Of a stretch of 64,000 nucleotides of DNA, positions 974 to 53,387 are shown piece after piece. Source of the DNA: Macrococcus epidermidis (GTDB taxonomy: Bacteria > Bacillota > Bacilli > Staphylococcales > Staphylococcaceae); assembly GCF_003259695.1 (NCBI RefSeq), contig NZ_PZJH01000001.1:868001-932000 (forward strand), written 5' to 3'. Each line of letters opens with the position of its first letter. Position 1 is the first letter of the stretch. A program made the translations under genes and the position numbers. A model generated the notes under the pieces. The model did not search any database. It was not told the DNA's origin and saw only the letters and a program-made list of their open reading frames with translations.

Positions 974-2350
974 TTATATTGTACGTATCGGGAATTGTAT
1001 AATAACTTTTGTAAATTGATTGACTTCACTTTCTATCTTCACTTGTCCTTTATATGTTTCGATTAACTTTTTAGCGATCGATAAACCCAAACCATTTCCA
1101 CCTTTACTTCTTGCTCTTGATTTATCAACACGATAAAAACGATCAAATATATTCGGAATATCTTCTTTTGGAATACCTTCTCCATTATCGATAATTTCAA
1201 TCTGAACTAATTTATTCTTCAAAGAGGTACGAAGTACAATATGTTTATTAATCTGATCATATTTCATCGCATTATCCAGAAAAATCAGTAAAATTTGTTC
1301 AAAATGAAAACGATTGATATTCAGCTTAATCTGTTCATGAGTTGAATGATATTCAAACATATAATCGTCTTTTAACTGTTGTATGGAATGAATTCTACCT
1401 TGAATTTCTGCATTGATATCAATATTTTCAATCTGCTTTGTTTCTAATAAATTTGAGTCTTTCGATAATAATAACAATTCTTCTACAAGTTTATTAATAC
1501 GATTCATCTCCTCCAATGAGATAGAGAGAGATTCTTCTAATATTTCGGGATTATTTTTCCCCCATCTTTGTATGAGATTTAAATGACCATTAACAATCTG
1601 TAGTGGTGTACGAAGCTCATGACTTGCATCTTCTACAAATTGTTTCTGCTGTTCAAAGCTTGATTCCAGCTGACTCATCATCTCATTAAATGTGTCAATC
1701 ATATCATCCGTTTCATAGTAACTCGTAGAGACTTGCAGTTTATTTTGAAAACCATCTCTTTTAATTTGATTCATCTTACTCGAAAGTCTTCGAATAGGCT
1801 TTGTAATCTGATTAGAAAATAAAAAACTGATTAAAGCCGTCATAAATAAAGCTGTAAGCCCAAAAAAACTACACAGCAATATAAGAAATTGCATCACATT
1901 AAAGTAATCATCCAGAGAACGTGCAACGGTAATATAGCCGTTATAATGTTCGTTGTGAAATGGCGTTGACATTAATAAGAATTGTCTTTCTCCAATTTTT
2001 TTCTGAACAAGACTGCGTTCATTTGTCTTTATAACTGGTAGATTAAAGTCGTAACTAGAATTCGTACTGACATCATAAATACTATTTCCATCAAGATTAT
2101 ACAAAAATACTTTTTCATTTTTATTGATTGCACGGTAAATATCTGACTGTGTCACTTCGCCAGTCGTTTTTTCTTCAAATAGATTAGAAATATCCGTGAC
2201 ACTTTTCCTTAGATCTTCTACTTCCTGCTCTTTTTGGTATGTACTGATTAAAAATATTATGAATAGGCTAAAAATCATAAAAATGATAAATGTCAGTGTC
2301 GTTGTTAAGACAGTCCATTTAGAGCGTAATGATTGTGATTTCGTATTCAT
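974..2350 (-). CDS. arlS: Sensor histidine kinase ArlS
   Basis: Membrane sensor kinase of the ArlRS two-component system, which in S. aureus controls autolysis, adhesion and virulence regulators. The 458 residues show two membrane segments (about 15-37 and 152-178) around an extracellular sensor loop, then a HAMP linker. The DHp phosphoacceptor is in [13 protein letters not shown] (His about 244). The C-terminal ATPase has the N box around DNAMKYDQ and the G1 box DNGEGIP. Its start overlaps the arlR stop by 4 bases, so the pair is translationally coupled. Length and domain order match the family; nothing appears truncated. Confidence 0.95.
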
Positions 2351-3027
2351 CGTATGACATAACCTACGCCGCGGACGGTTTCTATCAGCTTATGATATTG
2401 AAATGGTTTAAGTTTATTTCTTAAATATCTTATGTACACATCAACTACATTTGTCTCAACTTCACTTTCATAACCCCAGACACTTGTCAGAATCTGTTCT
2501 CTAGTCAATACATGTTTTTTATTCTCTACAAGTAGCTTAAGCAGTTCAAATTCAGTCTTTGTTAATTCAAGTACTTTTTCGTCAATCGAAACTGAGAATG
2601 CATCAAGATTGATCTTCATTTGATCAATTTGTAAGATATTTTCTTCAACAATATCATTCTTCGGTTGCTGTTGACGACGTAAAATCACCCTTATTCTCGC
2701 AAGTAACTCTTCTATATCAAAAGGTTTTACGATATAATCATCTGCACCATAATCCAAACCAATGACTTTATCGTAAGTATCACCTTTCGCTGTAATTATA
2801 ATTACTGGAGTATCTTTCACTTTTCTAAGTTTCCTACATACTTCTAAGCCATTAATTTTAGGTAGCATTAAATCCAAAAGTATACAGTCATAGTCATTTC
2901 TTATTGCTTCTTCAAGTCCAGCTTCACCATCATAAACGACACCGACATCATAACTTTCATGCATCAATTCTAACTGAATAAAACGGGCTAAATTTTCTTC
3001 ATCTTCTATAATTAAAATACTATGCAA
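2347..3027 (-). CDS. arlR: Response regulator ArlR (OmpR family)
   Basis: DNA-binding response regulator partner of ArlS. The 226 residues comprise a receiver domain (about 1-118) with the acidic pair EDE near the N-terminus, the phosphoacceptor Asp in LLDLMLP (about residue 52) and the KPF motif near residue 102. A C-terminal OmpR/PhoB winged helix ends in the typical [10 protein letters not shown]. The gene lies 19 bases after a GNAT acetyltransferase gene and overlaps arlS by 4 bases, so all three are probably cotranscribed. In S. aureus no acetyltransferase gene precedes arlR. Confidence 0.95.
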
Positions 3028-3046: not shown

Positions 3047-3646
3047 CTATTTCTTGTTGTATTTCTCCTGAATTTGTTTAATATTTTCTTTCACATCTGG
3101 CCATTCATCATCAATGATTGAATAAATAATTAAATTTCTTCTCACACCATCTAGATTACGTTCTTTACGAATAACACCTTCTTTTTGAAAACCTAATCGT
3201 TCTATCGCTCTATTAGAACGTTCATTGCGCTCATCTGCTCTAATTTGAACACGTACCATATTTAATGTTTCAAAACAGAATTCCAATAGTAAAAACTTAC
3301 TATCTGTATTAACATAAGTTTTTTGTGCTTTCACACCAAACCAGGTCGTTCCAATTTCACAACTATCATTATCATAATCTATCTCTTTTATTCGCGTAGA
3401 ACCAACTACTTCATTTGTTTCTTTCATTACGACGATAAAAGGAATAGATTTCATCTTTTCTCTTAAATGCACCGCGTCAATGACCCATTGTTCCATTAAA
3501 TCCATATCTGTCGCTTTAAATAACATATAACTCCAAATTGATTCATGGTTGATTTCATGAAGATCTTTCGCATGTTCAATTTGCATCGGTATTAATTTAA
3601 TTCTTTCATTCTCTAACACGACAGATTCAAATACGTTAATTGTCAC
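3047..3646 (-). CDS. GNAT family N-acetyltransferase (RimJ/RimL type)
   Basis: Predicted acetyl-CoA-dependent N-acetyltransferase of 199 residues; substrate unknown. The RimJ/RimL-like pattern is visible: an N-terminal [11 protein letters not shown] strand, a central [12 protein letters not shown] strand, [20 protein letters not shown] in place of the usual acetyl-CoA loop, and the C-terminal [19 protein letters not shown]. The start is GTG at 3646 with AAGGTG upstream; no in-frame ATG is close. It stands directly before arlR (19-base gap) and after the terminator of the small RNA at 3748-3854, so it may be the first gene of an arl operon in this organism. Confidence 0.82.
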
Positions 3647-3747: not shown

Positions 3748-3778
3748 AAAAAACTCCTGACTGGGCAAAGTCAGGAGT
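3748..3778 (-). terminator. Intrinsic terminator of the IsrR-like RNA
   Basis: ACTCCTGACT (3753-3762) pairs perfectly with AGTCAGGAGT (3769-3778) around a 6-base loop. In the minus direction six T follow. It closes the small RNA unit before the acetyltransferase-arlRS operon. Confidence 0.9.
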
Positions 3779-3854
3779 GTATGGGCAAAATATTGGGGGG
3801 TTAATTGAAAATGTTCTACTAGAGGGGGAACTCTTCAATTGAGAACCATTTTCA
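3748..3854 (-). ncRNA. isrR: IsrR-like Fur-regulated small RNA
   Basis: A roughly 107-base transcription unit without an ORF, read on the minus strand. It has a near-consensus promoter, two Fur boxes, a 5' long-range stem (3842-3855 with 3805-3817, one base unpaired) and a perfect 10-bp terminator hairpin followed by T6. Three C-rich stretches are predicted unpaired or in loops: UUCCCCCUCU (3821-3830), AACCCCCCAA (3793-3802) and UUGCCC in the terminator loop (3763-3768). S. aureus IsrR is a Fur-repressed iron-sparing sRNA encoded between arlR and pgpB. It carries several C-rich regions that pair with Shine-Dalgarno sequences. Location, promoter design and C-rich loops all agree; the unit is shorter than the S. 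aureus RNA. Orthology is inferred from these features, not from sequence alignment. Confidence 0.8.
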
Positions 3855-3887
3855 ATAACTATTATACCTTATTGAGAACGATTGTCA
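3840..3887 (-). promoter_or_regulatory. Promoter with two Fur boxes driving the IsrR-like RNA
   Basis: Minus strand: -35 TTGACA (3887-3882), 16-base spacer, -10 TATAAT (3866-3861). Two 15-mers of the 7-1-7 Fur type flank and overlap it: 3873-3887 (TGAGAACGATTGTCA on plus) over the -35 and 3840-3854 (TGAGAACCATTTTCA on plus) over the start point. Compared with TGATAATNATTATCA they differ at 3 positions each. The upstream box and the -35 lie inside the last codons of the PAP2 phosphatase gene. This placement would give tight iron-dependent repression. Confidence 0.8.
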
Positions 3888-4489
3888 ATTACTTTATGCA
3901 AAATTGTTTGAGATAAAAGAATACAAACAATACCACCTACAATTCCGGCAATGATATCTGTCGGATAATGAACACCTAGATAGACTCTACTTGAAGAAAT
4001 CATGATAATTGTAAACACACATAATCCAATCAAATATGGTTTTAACTTACGATCACTTTTACTAAAAAGATATGCGAGGCTTCCAAAAAATGCGGTTGAC
4101 CCCATTGCATGACCACTCGGGAAGCTAAATCCAGTAATATCGATTAGACGAAGTAAAGTTGGACGTTCTCTATCGAAAATATTCTTTAATAAAGGATTTA
4201 ATGTACCTGATAGAATCATAGATAGTGCAAAAAATAACGCTTCTATCTTTAATTTTTTCAGCATAAGATATGCAACTACTAGTAAACTTAATGCTATCAT
4301 TGCCCAGACTTCACCCACTTTAGTAAATCCGAGCATGATAGACGTTGTAATAAAACTTTCAGAAGAATATATAAATTCATATACTTCATTATCAATCCAT
4401 TTACCTAGTCTTGATTCATGGAAAAAAGCTATTACGCCAAAAATAAAACTAAATATTAAAATTAAGGTAATTCTTCTCGCTCTCGACAT
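3869..4489 (-). CDS. pgpB: PAP2-family membrane phosphatase
   Basis: Membrane phosphatase of the type-2 phosphatidic acid phosphatase family, probably acting on phosphatidylglycerophosphate or undecaprenyl pyrophosphate; substrate not determinable here. All three catalytic motifs are present: KNIFDRERP, FPSGHAMGS, and SRVYLGVHYPTD with the nucleophilic His. Five to six hydrophobic segments are visible. I chose ATG 4489 because AGGAGAGA lies 5 bases upstream and overlaps the murG stop; longer in-frame starts at 4510 or 4513 would bury that site in the coding region. The last codons overlap the promoter and upstream Fur box of the IsrR-like RNA. Confidence 0.87.
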   Translation of the reverse strand: MSRARRITLILIFSFIFGVIAFFHESRLGKWIDNEVYEFIYSSESFITTSIMLGFTKVGEVWAMIALSLLVVAYLMLKKLKIEALFFALSMILSGTLNPLLKNIFDRERPTLLRLIDITGFSFPSGHAMGSTAFFGSLAYLFSKSDRKLKPYLIGLCVFTIIMISSSRVYLGVHYPTDIIAGIVGGIVCILLSQTILHKVIDNRSQ

Positions 4490-4499
4490 ATTATCTCTC

Positions 4500-5564
4500 C
4501 TACTTGGCATCAAATATAATTTTTTCTAAAAGGGTTTCTGCTGTATATGTAACCTGTTCAGCATGCATTTTATTTTTTATTTCAGAATAATTTTTTTCTA
4601 CTTTTTCAATCGTATTGATTATATTCTGACTATTTAATTCAGATTCATGTAAAACTTCTGCAAAACCTTTAGATTTAAAAATCTTGGCATTTTCAATTTG
4701 ATCGCCTCGGCTTTGATCTAAACCGAGTGGAATTAATATCATCGGTTTCTTTAATGCTAAAAATTCATAAAGTGCGTTTGAACCAGCACGTGAAATCATA
4801 ATATCTGTAATTTTGTAAAGATGCATTAACTCTTCAGAGACAAATTCTCTCTGATAATAACCATTTTTTTGAATTGAAATATCTAGATTACCACGACCCA
4901 CAAGATGTATAATTTGATATTTTTTTAATAAAATATCTAAATTATCTCGTACAACTTGATTAATAATCTTAGAACCAAGTGAACCACCCATAATCATAAG
5001 TACTTTCTTATCACGATTAAATTGTGTGATTTGATAAGCTTTTAAAGCGTCTCCAGAAAATAAATCATCGCGAATAATACCGCCAACATAATCAGATTTT
5101 TCTCTAGGAACATATTTTAAAGTTTCTTCAAATGTCGTATAGAATCTATTCGCGAACTTTAATGCTAATTTATTAGCGAGTCCTGGTGTTACATCAGATT
5201 CATGGATAATAGTTTTAATATTAAGCATTTTTGCAGCAATTGTAACAGGAACAGCAACAAATCCACCTTTTGAAAATACTATATCCGGTTTTTCTCTTTT
5301 TAAAACACGCAATGCATCTAATACGCCTTTTTGAACTTTAAAGATATCCTTAAGATTTTCAGCAGAGATATATCTGCGTAATTTTCCACTCGAGATGCCA
5401 TAATATTTAACGTTTGGAAATCGTTTTGTAATTTCATCTTTTTCTATCCCATTTTTAGAACCGATATATATACATTCAATCCTCTGCGCTTCTGCTTTAG
5501 GAATTAAAGCCATGTTAACAGCGACATGACCAATCGTTCCCCCACCCGTAAATGCAATTTTCAT
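4500..5564 (-). CDS. murG: UDP-GlcNAc:lipid I GlcNAc transferase MurG
   Basis: Peripheral membrane glycosyltransferase that converts lipid I to lipid II in peptidoglycan synthesis. The N-terminus MKIAFTGGGTIGHV carries the G-loop. FSKGGFVAVP, HESDVTPGLANK and the donor-site segments MGGSLGSK and SRAGSNALYEF follow, as in staphylococcal MurG. The start is placed at ATG 5564, since GGAG sits 8 bases before it; the in-frame GTG at 5573 directly abuts that GGAG. The gene follows ctpA by 13 bases and its stop TAG forms part of the ribosome site of the downstream phosphatase gene. Confidence 0.94.
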   Translation of the reverse strand: MKIAFTGGGTIGHVAVNMALIPKAEAQRIECIYIGSKNGIEKDEITKRFPNVKYYGISSGKLRRYISAENLKDIFKVQKGVLDALRVLKREKPDIVFSKGGFVAVPVTIAAKMLNIKTIIHESDVTPGLANKLALKFANRFYTTFEETLKYVPREKSDYVGGIIRDDLFSGDALKAYQITQFNRDKKVLMIMGGSLGSKIINQVVRDNLDILLKKYQIIHLVGRGNLDISIQKNGYYQREFVSEELMHLYKITDIMISRAGSNALYEFLALKKPMILIPLGLDQSRGDQIENAKIFKSKGFAEVLHESELNSQNIINTIEKVEKNYSEIKNKMHAEQVTYTAETLLEKIIFDAK

Positions 5565-16489: not shown

Positions 16490-17261
16490 TTAATATTTTC
16501 TCCATTGTAATTAACACACCATTTTCGTCATTACTCGGTATTTCATACTTTGCGATTGATTTAACTTTGTCATTTCCGTTTGCCATTGCAAAAGAATTTT
16601 TTGTAAGTTTTAGCATTTCAATATCATTATCACTATCACCAAAGACATATAAATCTTGCATATTTGCAACCAATATATTCAACACCTTTTTAATTGCGAC
16701 AGCTTTATTTGTACCTTTATGAATGATGTCGATACAATTAAAACCACTATAGACTGCAATGCTTGACTGGCATAAAGCATTTAACTGAGCAATCAACTCT
16801 TTCATATCACCTTTTATTTCAATTGTGATTTTAGTAATATCATTCATTTCATTCATTTCATTCAAATTATTTATAATTAAATCGTTATAATAATTCTGCA
16901 TTCGACTGATAAATTGTTCGCCAGCTAATTTGTTTACATAAGATTTTTCTAACGTACTTGTTACATAAGAATAAATATTATTATAATTTAAATACTTTAA
17001 AATCCGATAAATATCAGTGTTATCGAGAAATTGCGTATCTATAATTTTATCATCAAACGCAATGACTGCACCATTAGAGCCAATATAGTATATATCTTTT
17101 TGTCTAAAGAATGTTTTGAGATGAGAAATAGTATTGCTACTTGCTACTAACAACTTAAATTCATCTTTATATTCTGTATTTAATCTTTCGAAAAATTTCT
17201 TATCATAATTATTATCACTATCTAGAAACGTGCCATCCATATCCACTGCAAATACTTTCAT
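16476..17261 (-). CDS. Cof-type HAD superfamily phosphatase
   Basis: About 261 residues. Motif I is FAVDMDGTFLD with the nucleophilic Asp, motif II is LLVASSNT, the conserved Lys is in KAVAIKKVL, and motif IV is VFGDSDNDIEML, the pattern of Cof/YwpJ sugar or nucleotide phosphatases with a C2 cap. The substrate cannot be read from sequence. ATG 17261 with GGATGAG upstream is preferred over 17288. It is 30 bases downstream of the Fic-like regulator and probably cotranscribed with it. Confidence 0.85.
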   Translation of the reverse strand: MKVFAVDMDGTFLDSDNNYDKKFFERLNTEYKDEFKLLVASSNTISHLKTFFRQKDIYYIGSNGAVIAFDDKIIDTQFLDNTDIYRILKYLNYNNIYSYVTSTLEKSYVNKLAGEQFISRMQNYYNDLIINNLNEMNEMNDITKITIEIKGDMKELIAQLNALCQSSIAVYSGFNCIDIIHKGTNKAVAIKKVLNILVANMQDLYVFGDSDNDIEMLKLTKNSFAMANGNDKVKSIAKYEIPSNDENGVLITMEKILKEEL

Positions 17262-29569: not shown

Positions 29570-29953
29570 TAGAAAGATATCTCTATAAGCCATGTTCTGT
29601 TCCTTAGTACTGCAAATGAGCCTAGATACTCTCGTACGCCGGTGATAATCATCTGTCTGTATTTTCATACCTCTTCTATACGTTCATTTCCGCTAGAAAA
29701 GTGCTCCTACCAAATTTGGATTGCTCACTCGAGGGGTTTACCGCGTTCCACCTTTTCTATTTCTAGAAAAGCTACGTCACTGTGGCACTTTCAAGTTACT
29801 CAGACCATATCAAAGACTTAGGTCTATTCACTGCCGTCAAATTAATGCCCTGGCTTATTGTTTCACCAGGCACGATCACTACAGCCATCTCAGGCATGTG
29901 TGAGCATGGACTTTCCTCTATACAAAGTATAGCGATTATCCGAGATATCTTTT
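29570..29953 (-). ncRNA. rnpB: RNase P RNA, type B
   Basis: Catalytic RNA of ribonuclease P, which matures tRNA 5' ends. The minus strand contains the universal GAGGAAAGTCCATGCTC near the 5' end and GAACAGAACATGGCTTATAG near the 3' end. GATATCTC at the 5' end pairs with GAGATATC at the 3' end as helix P1. ACGGCAGTG and the TCTAGCGGAAATGAACG region are further conserved parts of the Bacillus-type (type B) RNA. The size of about 380 bases fits. End points are accurate to a few bases. Confidence 0.95.
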
Positions 29954-49271: not shown

Positions 49272-49775
49272 CTATTTCACTAATTCATTTGGATGTTTTT
49301 TACCGATTGTAAGCATTCCGCCTTTATCACCAGTTTCATACTGATCTAAAGGTCCAAGTGGTGGTGTACCAGGAACATTTTTACCATTCTTCTCGTAACG
49401 ACCATTATGACATGGACAGAAGAATTGGTTTGGATTTGATTTATCACCATTCCAGGCAACAGTACAACCTAAGTGCTTACAAACTGGAGACATTGCAATA
49501 ATGTTTTCCCCATCTTTATAAACCCATGCAAATTCTGTTACTTCGCTCGTATACCATGCATCTTTTTGTTCGAATTTGAAGTCAACTTTCGTTGGTTCTT
49601 CAGTAATTTCCGAAACTTTAACGCTTGTTGTTATCATATCTCCTGCTGCTCCAGATTTAAACACAGGATCTAACGCAAAGCGCCCTAAAGGCATAACCAT
49701 ACCAGCAGCCATAAATGATCCAACTCCCATTAAGGAATAGTTTAAAAATTGGCGTCTTGTGACACGTTGGCTCAT
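49272..49775 (-). CDS. qcrA: Rieske iron-sulfur subunit QcrA
   Basis: [2Fe-2S] protein of the bc complex, 167 residues. The cluster ligands are in CKHLGCTVAWNGD and FFCPCHNGRYEKNG. The N-terminus has a twin-arginine motif TRRQFL before a hydrophobic anchor, so it is probably Tat-exported folded. Its Shine-Dalgarno region TTAGAGGGGGGAAAA is unusually G-rich and complementary to the first C-rich loop of the IsrR-like RNA at 3820-3830. Confidence 0.95.
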   Translation of the reverse strand: MSQRVTRRQFLNYSLMGVGSFMAAGMVMPLGRFALDPVFKSGAAGDMITTSVKVSEITEEPTKVDFKFEQKDAWYTSEVTEFAWVYKDGENIIAMSPVCKHLGCTVAWNGDKSNPNQFFCPCHNGRYEKNGKNVPGTPPLGPLDQYETGDKGGMLTIGKKHPNELVK

Positions 49776-49831
49776 TTAATTTTCCCCCCTCTAACGCGAT
49801 TCTTTTATATAAAATATACTAGGACATATCA

Positions 49832-52080: not shown

Positions 52081-53387
52081 TATTTTCCTCCTTGTAGTGT
52101 TCTTAAATCATCCATAAATGATGGATACGATATATTAACTGCTTCAAAATGATCAATTTCAATATCTTCATTTTCTAATAAATTCGCAATTGCAAGCAGC
52201 ATACCAATACGATGATCATTAAAAGATGAAAATCGCGTGTTTAGCATCGATTCTTTTTCATGCCCATAAATTATCATACCATCATCAGTAGCTTCTAAAT
52301 GATAACCGAGCTGATTCAAACTTTCAACTACCTTGTCTATTCTGTTCGTTTCCTTTACCTTCAATTCTTCTGCATCACGTATCATACTTCTACCACGCGC
52401 CTGTGTCATCAATAATGCAATAATCGGTATCTCATCAATTAATGTTGGGATCATATCCCCATAAACATCTGTTGCATTTAACTGGGCTGTATATTTCACC
52501 TCTATATCGCATATCGGTTCCGCGCCGTCAGAAACAGATTTTAAAGAAATTTGTCCACCCATTGCCTGTACAACTTCAATAATACCAGAACGTGTCATAT
52601 TTGTTCCGACATTTCTGATGACAATATGACTTCCGGGAATGATTAAACCGGCTACGATAAAGAATGCAGCAGAAGAAATATCACCAGGTACTTGTACATC
52701 AGTAGTTACTAAATTATCTATGGAATGCGCTGGTAAGTGGATATAATCATCTTGCTTCTCAACCTCAATGCCAAACTGTTGAAACATGAGTTCTGTGTGG
52801 TTACGTGAAGTCACCTGTTCTTTTAACATAACATCGCTTTTTGCATACAAACCTGCAAATAATATCGCTGACTTTACTTGAGCACTTTTAACCTGCATAT
52901 CATATGTTATCCCATTAATATTAGCAATATTATTCATGCTATTGATAACAAGTGGTGTACGACTATTATTTTGACTACCAGTAATATCCACACCCATTAA
53001 ACGCAACGGTTCAATGACACGATCCATCGGTCTTTTCGCTATTGAATCATCACCACTCATCACAGACATAAATGGCAGCCCCGCAAGTACACCAGACAAT
53101 AACCGTGTCGTTGTGCCTGAATTACCAGTGTCCAGCACTTGTGTAGGCTCAACAAAATTACGATAACCTTGCGCGTTAATTATTATTTCTTTATTTACTT
53201 CATTAACCCGAATATCCACGCCTAACTTTCGGAAAATATTAATCGTACTCAAACAATCTTCACCTAATAAAGGGTCTATGATTTTCATTTTTCCTTCCGA
53301 TAAACTACCTAAGATAATTGCGCGATGTGTGATTGACTTATCGCCAGGTACTTTTATCTCGCCTGTTAATCCTTTACTTTTCACCAT
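52080..53387 (-). CDS. aroA: 3-phosphoshikimate 1-carboxyvinyltransferase (EPSP synthase)
   Basis: Sixth step of the shikimate pathway. The 435 residues contain VPGDKSITHRAIILG near the start, LDTGNSGTTTRLLSGVLAG, the substrate loop AKRPMDRVIEPL, and KVKETNRIDKVVESL. It overlaps aroB by 14 bases and ypiA by one base. It supplies chorismate for menaquinone and aromatic amino acids. Confidence 0.95.
   Translation of the reverse strand: MVKSKGLTGEIKVPGDKSITHRAIILGSLSEGKMKIIDPLLGEDCLSTINIFRKLGVDIRVNEVNKEIIINAQGYRNFVEPTQVLDTGNSGTTTRLLSGVLAGLPFMSVMSGDDSIAKRPMDRVIEPLRLMGVDITGSQNNSRTPLVINSMNNIANINGITYDMQVKSAQVKSAILFAGLYAKSDVMLKEQVTSRNHTELMFQQFGIEVEKQDDYIHLPAHSIDNLVTTDVQVPGDISSAAFFIVAGLIIPGSHIVIRNVGTNMTRSGIIEVVQAMGGQISLKSVSDGAEPICDIEVKYTAQLNATDVYGDMIPTLIDEIPIIALLMTQARGRSMIRDAEELKVKETNRIDKVVESLNQLGYHLEATDDGMIIYGHEKESMLNTRFSSFNDHRIGMLLAIANLLENEDIEIDHFEAVNISYPSFMDDLRTLQGGK

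Follow-up and report, generated by a model that had tools for sequence, protein, structure and literature searches.

The small RNA (sRNA) IsrR of Staphylococcus aureus has the same physiological role as RyhB of enterobacteria and PrrF1/PrrF2 of Pseudomonas. It is not orthologous to RyhB (PMC9410917). IsrR, also known as S596 or Tsr25, is encoded between arlR and pgpB and has two Fur boxes, three C-rich regions (CRRs) and the stem-loops H1 to H3 (PMC9410917); the gene lies on the strand opposite to pgpB and runs towards it. Its direct targets in S. aureus are citB, sdhC, mqo and miaB, and hemA is enriched with IsrR (PMC12607789). FsrA of Bacillus subtilis (RF02273) is a Fur-regulated, iron-sparing RNA that represses citB and sdhCAB (PMC11257911). 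According to a 2026 review, IsrR is conserved across Staphylococcus and has no homology to iron-regulated RNAs of other species (PMC13343841). Here we analyze a stretch of 64,000 nucleotides of Macrococcus epidermidis (contig NZ_PZJH01000001.1, positions 868,001 to 932,000), further called the window, in which an initial annotation had proposed an IsrR-like RNA next to pgpB on the minus strand.

It is highly probable that this interval of a Macrococcoides genome encodes a shortened orthologue of IsrR, Fur-repressed and iron-sparing, in what is probably the ancestral orientation, and that its C-rich loops would block the translation of iron enzymes. Systems of this kind are known; this variant appears to be new, as do its orientation and its distribution. 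What the initial annotation had observed was confirmed and its interpretation was largely right; it had overlooked that the gene is inverted with respect to Staphylococcus, that its unit touches the pgpB stop codon, that a GNAT acetyltransferase gene intervenes and that the RNA is spread through the order.

Kinship with staphylococcal IsrR

The candidate unit spans window positions 3748-3888 (-) and consists of a promoter, two Fur-type boxes, a predicted RNA of about 107 nucleotides (3748..3855, -; from the fold and covariance models) and a terminator. The covariance-model search proposed in the initial annotation was carried out with a model (R1) built only from the IsrR cores of Staphylococcus and Mammaliicoccus, the genus of the window being left out. 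Its best match in the window was at positions 3777-3855 (46.3 bits, E=3e-6), and it recovered the same site in 15 of 15 sister loci searched. A sequence-only model that begins after the Fur box and also includes Mammaliicoccus (R3) still matched the interval (E=7.8e-6). The Mammaliicoccus copies bridge the two forms, as they have CRR1 AAGAGUUCCCCCUCU, CRR2 and CRR3 in common with Macrococcus and the orientation of Staphylococcus. Because the genus-free model and the model without the Fur box both match, the adjacency to pgpB is conserved and Mammaliicoccus provides a bridge, the proposed orthology with IsrR is supported. Elsewhere in the window, a second, weak match to the IsrR model was seen at positions 52203-52271 (+; 22.5 bits, E about 0.09).

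The locus resembles S. aureus isrR in the promoter sequence and the equal spacing of two Fur boxes (PMC9410917, PMC12607789), in the formation of H1 from Fur box 2, in the order of the three C-rich regions, in the adjacency to pgpB and in the predicted targets citB, sdhC and mqo. It differs in that the predicted RNA is shorter (about 107 versus 174 nucleotides), H2 and H3 are lacking, CRR1 is enclosed in a tight AGAG/CUCU hairpin, the gene is turned round with respect to pgpB, CRR1 rather than CRR2 is the predicted citB partner, and qcrA, a gene absent from S. aureus, is an additional predicted target.

The minus-strand promoter was present as described, with the -35 hexamer TTGACA (3883..3888, -) within the 3' end of pgpB and the -10 hexamer TATAAT (3861..3866, -) identified by a promoter scan. 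With 12 of 12 hexamer matches and a 16-nucleotide spacer, it is the top of the 38 promoter-like sites in the first 9 kb of the window. The two 15-bp Fur-type boxes reported over the -35 hexamer and the start were also found, each with three mismatches to TGATAATNATTATCA. Box 1 (TGACAATCGTTCTCA; 3873..3887, -) lies in the last codons of pgpB, the TAA stop codon (3871-3869) following directly; box 2 (TGAAAATGGTTCTCA; 3840..3854, -) lies at the predicted transcript start and forms the 5' arm of H1. This arrangement around the promoter, with one box in it and one at or just after the start, was kept in all 28 genomes inspected, and binding by Fur, an orthologue of which is encoded (262 bits versus a cut-off of 220), is predicted. 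Plastid ccsA-ndhD matches over the boxes were taken as inverted-repeat artefacts. A Fur-type box with a single mismatch (TCATAATTATTATCA) occurs at window positions 17203-17217.

Folding of the predicted RNA gave z = -5.1, no shuffled sequence being as good. The reported intrinsic terminator is a stem-loop at 3753..3778 (-), with a perfect 10-bp stem, CCC in the loop and a T run to 3748. Stem-loop H1 (3805..3855, -) has the inner hairpin presenting CRR1, and H1 with CRR1 in the loop was obtained for 19 of 19 representatives folded. The three stretches described as C-rich and unpaired are CRR1 (CCCCC in GUUCCCCCUCU; 3824..3828, -), the predicted seed for qcrA, citB and sdhC, CRR2 (CCCCCC in UUAACCCCCCAAU; 3795..3800, -) and CRR3 (CCC in UUUUGCCCAU; 3783..3785, -), the latter two located by fold and pairing computations. 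At RNA positions 28-32, 56-61 and 71-73, they have unpaired probabilities of 0.78, 0.91 and 1.0, respectively; a fourth C run (positions 91-93) is inside the terminator loop. RNAalifold applied to MAFFT alignments yielded just four to seven pairs, owing to shifting loop lengths, so the sequences were folded singly, and no covariation statistics are claimed for H1. The RNA length given in the initial annotation held. The lone overlapping open reading frame on the same strand starts inside the RNA (TTG at 3838) and extends far beyond the terminator.

Orientation and spread through Staphylococcales

On the minus strand, murG is followed by pgpB, the RNA, the GNAT acetyltransferase gene, arlR and arlS. 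The pgpB gene (PAP2 superfamily; 3869..4489, -), whose product is closest among named proteins to PgpB of Macrococcoides goetzii (99%) and M. bohemicum (98%), is immediately 5' of the RNA, which is predicted to start about 14 nucleotides past the stop codon. A terminator was looked for in the interval between pgpB and the RNA and none was found; the RNA therefore probably also forms the end of the pgpB transcript. The placement between arlR and pgpB given in the initial annotation was correct, with the GNAT gene (3047..3646, -), 3' of the RNA, separating it from the response regulator gene arlR (2347..3027, -), and with an orientation opposite to that in Staphylococcus. A GNAT gene is present in this position in some Salinicoccus as well.

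In all loci of Macrococcoides, Macrococcus and Macrococcus sp. DPC7161 the RNA is co-directional with pgpB and Fur box 1 abuts the pgpB stop codon. The same layout recurs in seven genomes of Salinicoccus (S. cyprini among them) and in S. hispanicus, whereas in Staphylococcus and Mammaliicoccus isrR is inverted relative to pgpB. On a tree built from PgpB, MurG and ArlR with Salinicoccus as the root, which joins Mammaliicoccus to Staphylococcus with an SH-aLRT support of 86 (not high), one orientation change suffices. Since the outgroup and the tree require just this one change, the layout of the window is most simply explained as ancestral and that of Staphylococcus as derived by a single inversion. 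A fuller history can be offered tentatively, as a conjecture with somewhat less than even chances. The IsrR of much of Staphylococcales may have arisen where the pgpB transcript ends, its Fur box occupying the last pgpB codons and CRR1 being the sole seed, and may later have gained CRR2 and CRR3; a single inversion in the ancestor of Staphylococcus and Mammaliicoccus would then have freed it from pgpB read-through. The lineage of the window would have retained its double nature as a Fur-induced RNA and a 3' untranslated region.

A model search in 157 genomes of the order gave matches in 128. The same RNA adjoins pgpB in Macrococcoides, Macrococcus, Mammaliicoccus and Staphylococcus. In Mammaliicoccus, two tandem IsrR-like units with Fur promoters, about 160 bp apart, were found in all eight genomes (L048:2113-2438, L049-L055), which recalls the PrrF1/PrrF2 pair of Pseudomonas; the distal unit keeps H1 and CRR1 without CRR2 or CRR3, CRR1 being lost in one genome (L053). 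RNAs that begin with a Fur box and have H1 and a C-rich loop, yet lack CRR2 and CRR3, occur in Salinicoccus and in another genus of its family (g10); they score 37 to 52 bits with R1 and, in g10, 37.5 bits with Rfam tsr25. In g10 the RNA is at a different locus, away from pgpB (L154-L157, L159, L160), and its GGCCCCCUC loop fits the ribosome site of its own citB. With the Fur box removed, a single weak match (E=0.23) was found among these Salinicoccaceae versions and the others were not found; for this reason they are considered probable relatives of IsrR, a kinship for which position, orientation, H1 and the Fur box are the combined evidence. Weak matches of a further model, R2 (L158, L161, L162), look like Fur boxes of other genes and were rejected.

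We found no literature linking IsrR to Macrococcus, Mammaliicoccus or sciuri, S596 to Macrococcus, or iron-sparing sRNAs to Salinicoccus, in a search outside of which subscription journals and supplementary tables lay. Our analysis suggests that IsrR is older and more widespread than the literature states, its range now including Macrococcoides, Macrococcus, Mammaliicoccus and, probably, Salinicoccus and the related genus. The comparison shows how the core target of an sRNA can be retained although its gene is inverted at the same locus, entire stem-loops differ and the seed changes. The inversion makes it possible to test how gene orientation affects sRNA control, and iron sparing can be studied in relatives that are not model organisms.

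Predicted targets

Pairing was ranked against 447 genes from a 464-kb sample of this genome; their starts were called by a simple script, so the ranks are approximate. RNAduplex over the whole RNA gave meaningless long gapped duplexes and was replaced by stacking energies of contiguous helices. The genes citB, sdhC and miaB had been chosen beforehand, and mqo, hmp, cypC, hemH and cccA were added post hoc from a search for GGGGG sites. The strongest helix was that of qcrA (-24.1 kcal/mol), and sdhC (-23.4), citB (-20.6) and mqo (-19.8 kcal/mol) were exceeded only by it; hemA, identified by eye from its N-terminus, ranked 14th. For iron-enzyme repression, these top ranks of qcrA, sdhC, citB and mqo represent in silico complementarity. 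The qcrA gene, encoding a QcrA-like Rieske iron-sulphur protein, is itself in the window (49272..49775, -), and the RNA is predicted to bind at its ribosome-binding site (UUAGAGGGGGGA; 49783..49794, -), which is conserved in Macrococcus and Mammaliicoccus. Its presence among the predicted targets suggests that the regulon tracks the respiratory chain retained by each genus.

The ribosome site of the aconitase gene citB, GGGGGAAC, is the complement of CRR1 in Macrococcoides, Mammaliicoccus and most Macrococcus, where the site AGGGGGAAC matches CRR1 GUUCCCCCU. In g10, citB AGAGGGGGC pairs with GCCCCCUCU of the RNA, and in Salinicoccus GGGGGCU of citB pairs with AGCCCCC; most Staphylococcus have the best citB helix with CRR2. 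Three of the four citB groups have their own RNA as the best partner.

The ribosome site of sdhC is GGGGGG. A Fur-box-like sequence (TTGAGAATCATTTTCA) is present about 170-200 bases 5' of sdhC (L342), as in other Macrococcoides and in Macrococcus, and iron may control sdh both directly and through the RNA.

Proposed mechanism and alternative explanations

In the presence of iron, Fur would hold the promoter at the two boxes; in its absence, the RNA would be made and would end at its own terminator. CRR1 to CRR3 are predicted to pair with the G-rich Shine-Dalgarno sequences found in transcripts that encode iron enzymes or belong to the pathways of these enzymes, qcrA, sdhC, citB and mqo being the strongest predicted targets with hemA behind them, and this pairing would block translation. 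CRR1 would be the main seed in this lineage, compared with CRR2 for citB in most Staphylococcus.

Several observations weigh against this interpretation. A Rfam scan at the gathering score gave no match at the interval, where RF02578 (tsr25) reached just 13.4 bits versus a cut-off of 63, which is why the lineage models were built; tsr25 has no match in the Macrococcoides and Macrococcus genomes and is also below 63 bits in several Staphylococcus genomes. Folding shows H1 and the terminator in Macrococcoides but neither H2 nor H3, so the RNA is a short variant, in agreement with the low tsr25 score and with the shorter form outside Staphylococcus proper suggested initially. A single Fur-type box does not stand out from chance (31 matches of this quality in the window, where 22.5 are expected), and the evidential weight of the boxes therefore comes from conservation. 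The pairing strength of the iron-enzyme genes is nearly reached by many genes unrelated to iron that have GGGGG at the ribosome site, so that target specificity is only partly shown, and the helix of miaB is equalled or surpassed by those of 25 of the 447 genes. In Salinicoccus, citB forms a better helix with the RNA of g10 than with its own RNA, and the co-variation of citB and CRR1 between genera is based on about four clades. Finally, the RNA is known here from sequence alone, from which we infer its transcription, Fur binding, translational block, physiological role and pgpB read-through.

The alternative with the largest share of the remaining probability, still an unlikely one, is that read-through and processing release the RNA chiefly as the 3'-terminal part of the pgpB operon mRNA, the Fur promoter being an additional source. 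The shared strand, the short distance to the stop codon with no terminator found in between, and the repetition of this layout in Macrococcus and Salinicoccus agree with it, but the perfect promoter and the two conserved Fur boxes favour internal initiation as the regulated source. We regard as quite improbable an independent origin, in which a Fur-regulated RNA arose at the same place, on the strand opposite to staphylococcal isrR, and is IsrR-like in action only. C-rich iron-sparing RNAs did arise more than once (PMC9410917), and both the orientation and the weak Rfam score would fit; the significant match to the staphylococcal and mammaliicoccal model even without the Fur box argues for common descent, as do the Mammaliicoccus copies, which combine the C-rich regions of Macrococcus with the staphylococcal orientation.

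That the unit is a Fur-controlled promoter and terminator with no functional RNA, as knowledge from sequence would allow, is very improbable, given loops conserved across genera and matching target sites that change with them. Membership in the FsrA family has the slightest chance of all. FsrA has an equal role, works alike and shares the targets citB and sdhCAB (PMC11257911), but RF02273 gave no match at the site and nothing above the cut-off in 12 genomes of the order, its best match in this genome being an ordinary terminator, and this identity was rejected at the sensitivity of that model. The IsrR orthologue described above is the preferred explanation.

Among other observations, the class B RNase P RNA is at window positions 29581-29947 (-), and Rfam S414 (Staphylococcus sRNA 414) has an above-cut-off match at 4865-5039 (+), antisense within murG. 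The first 60 residues of the product of L253 (G000:C25:18806) resemble APH(3') aminoglycoside phosphotransferases, although the score falls far short of the curated whole-protein cut-off.
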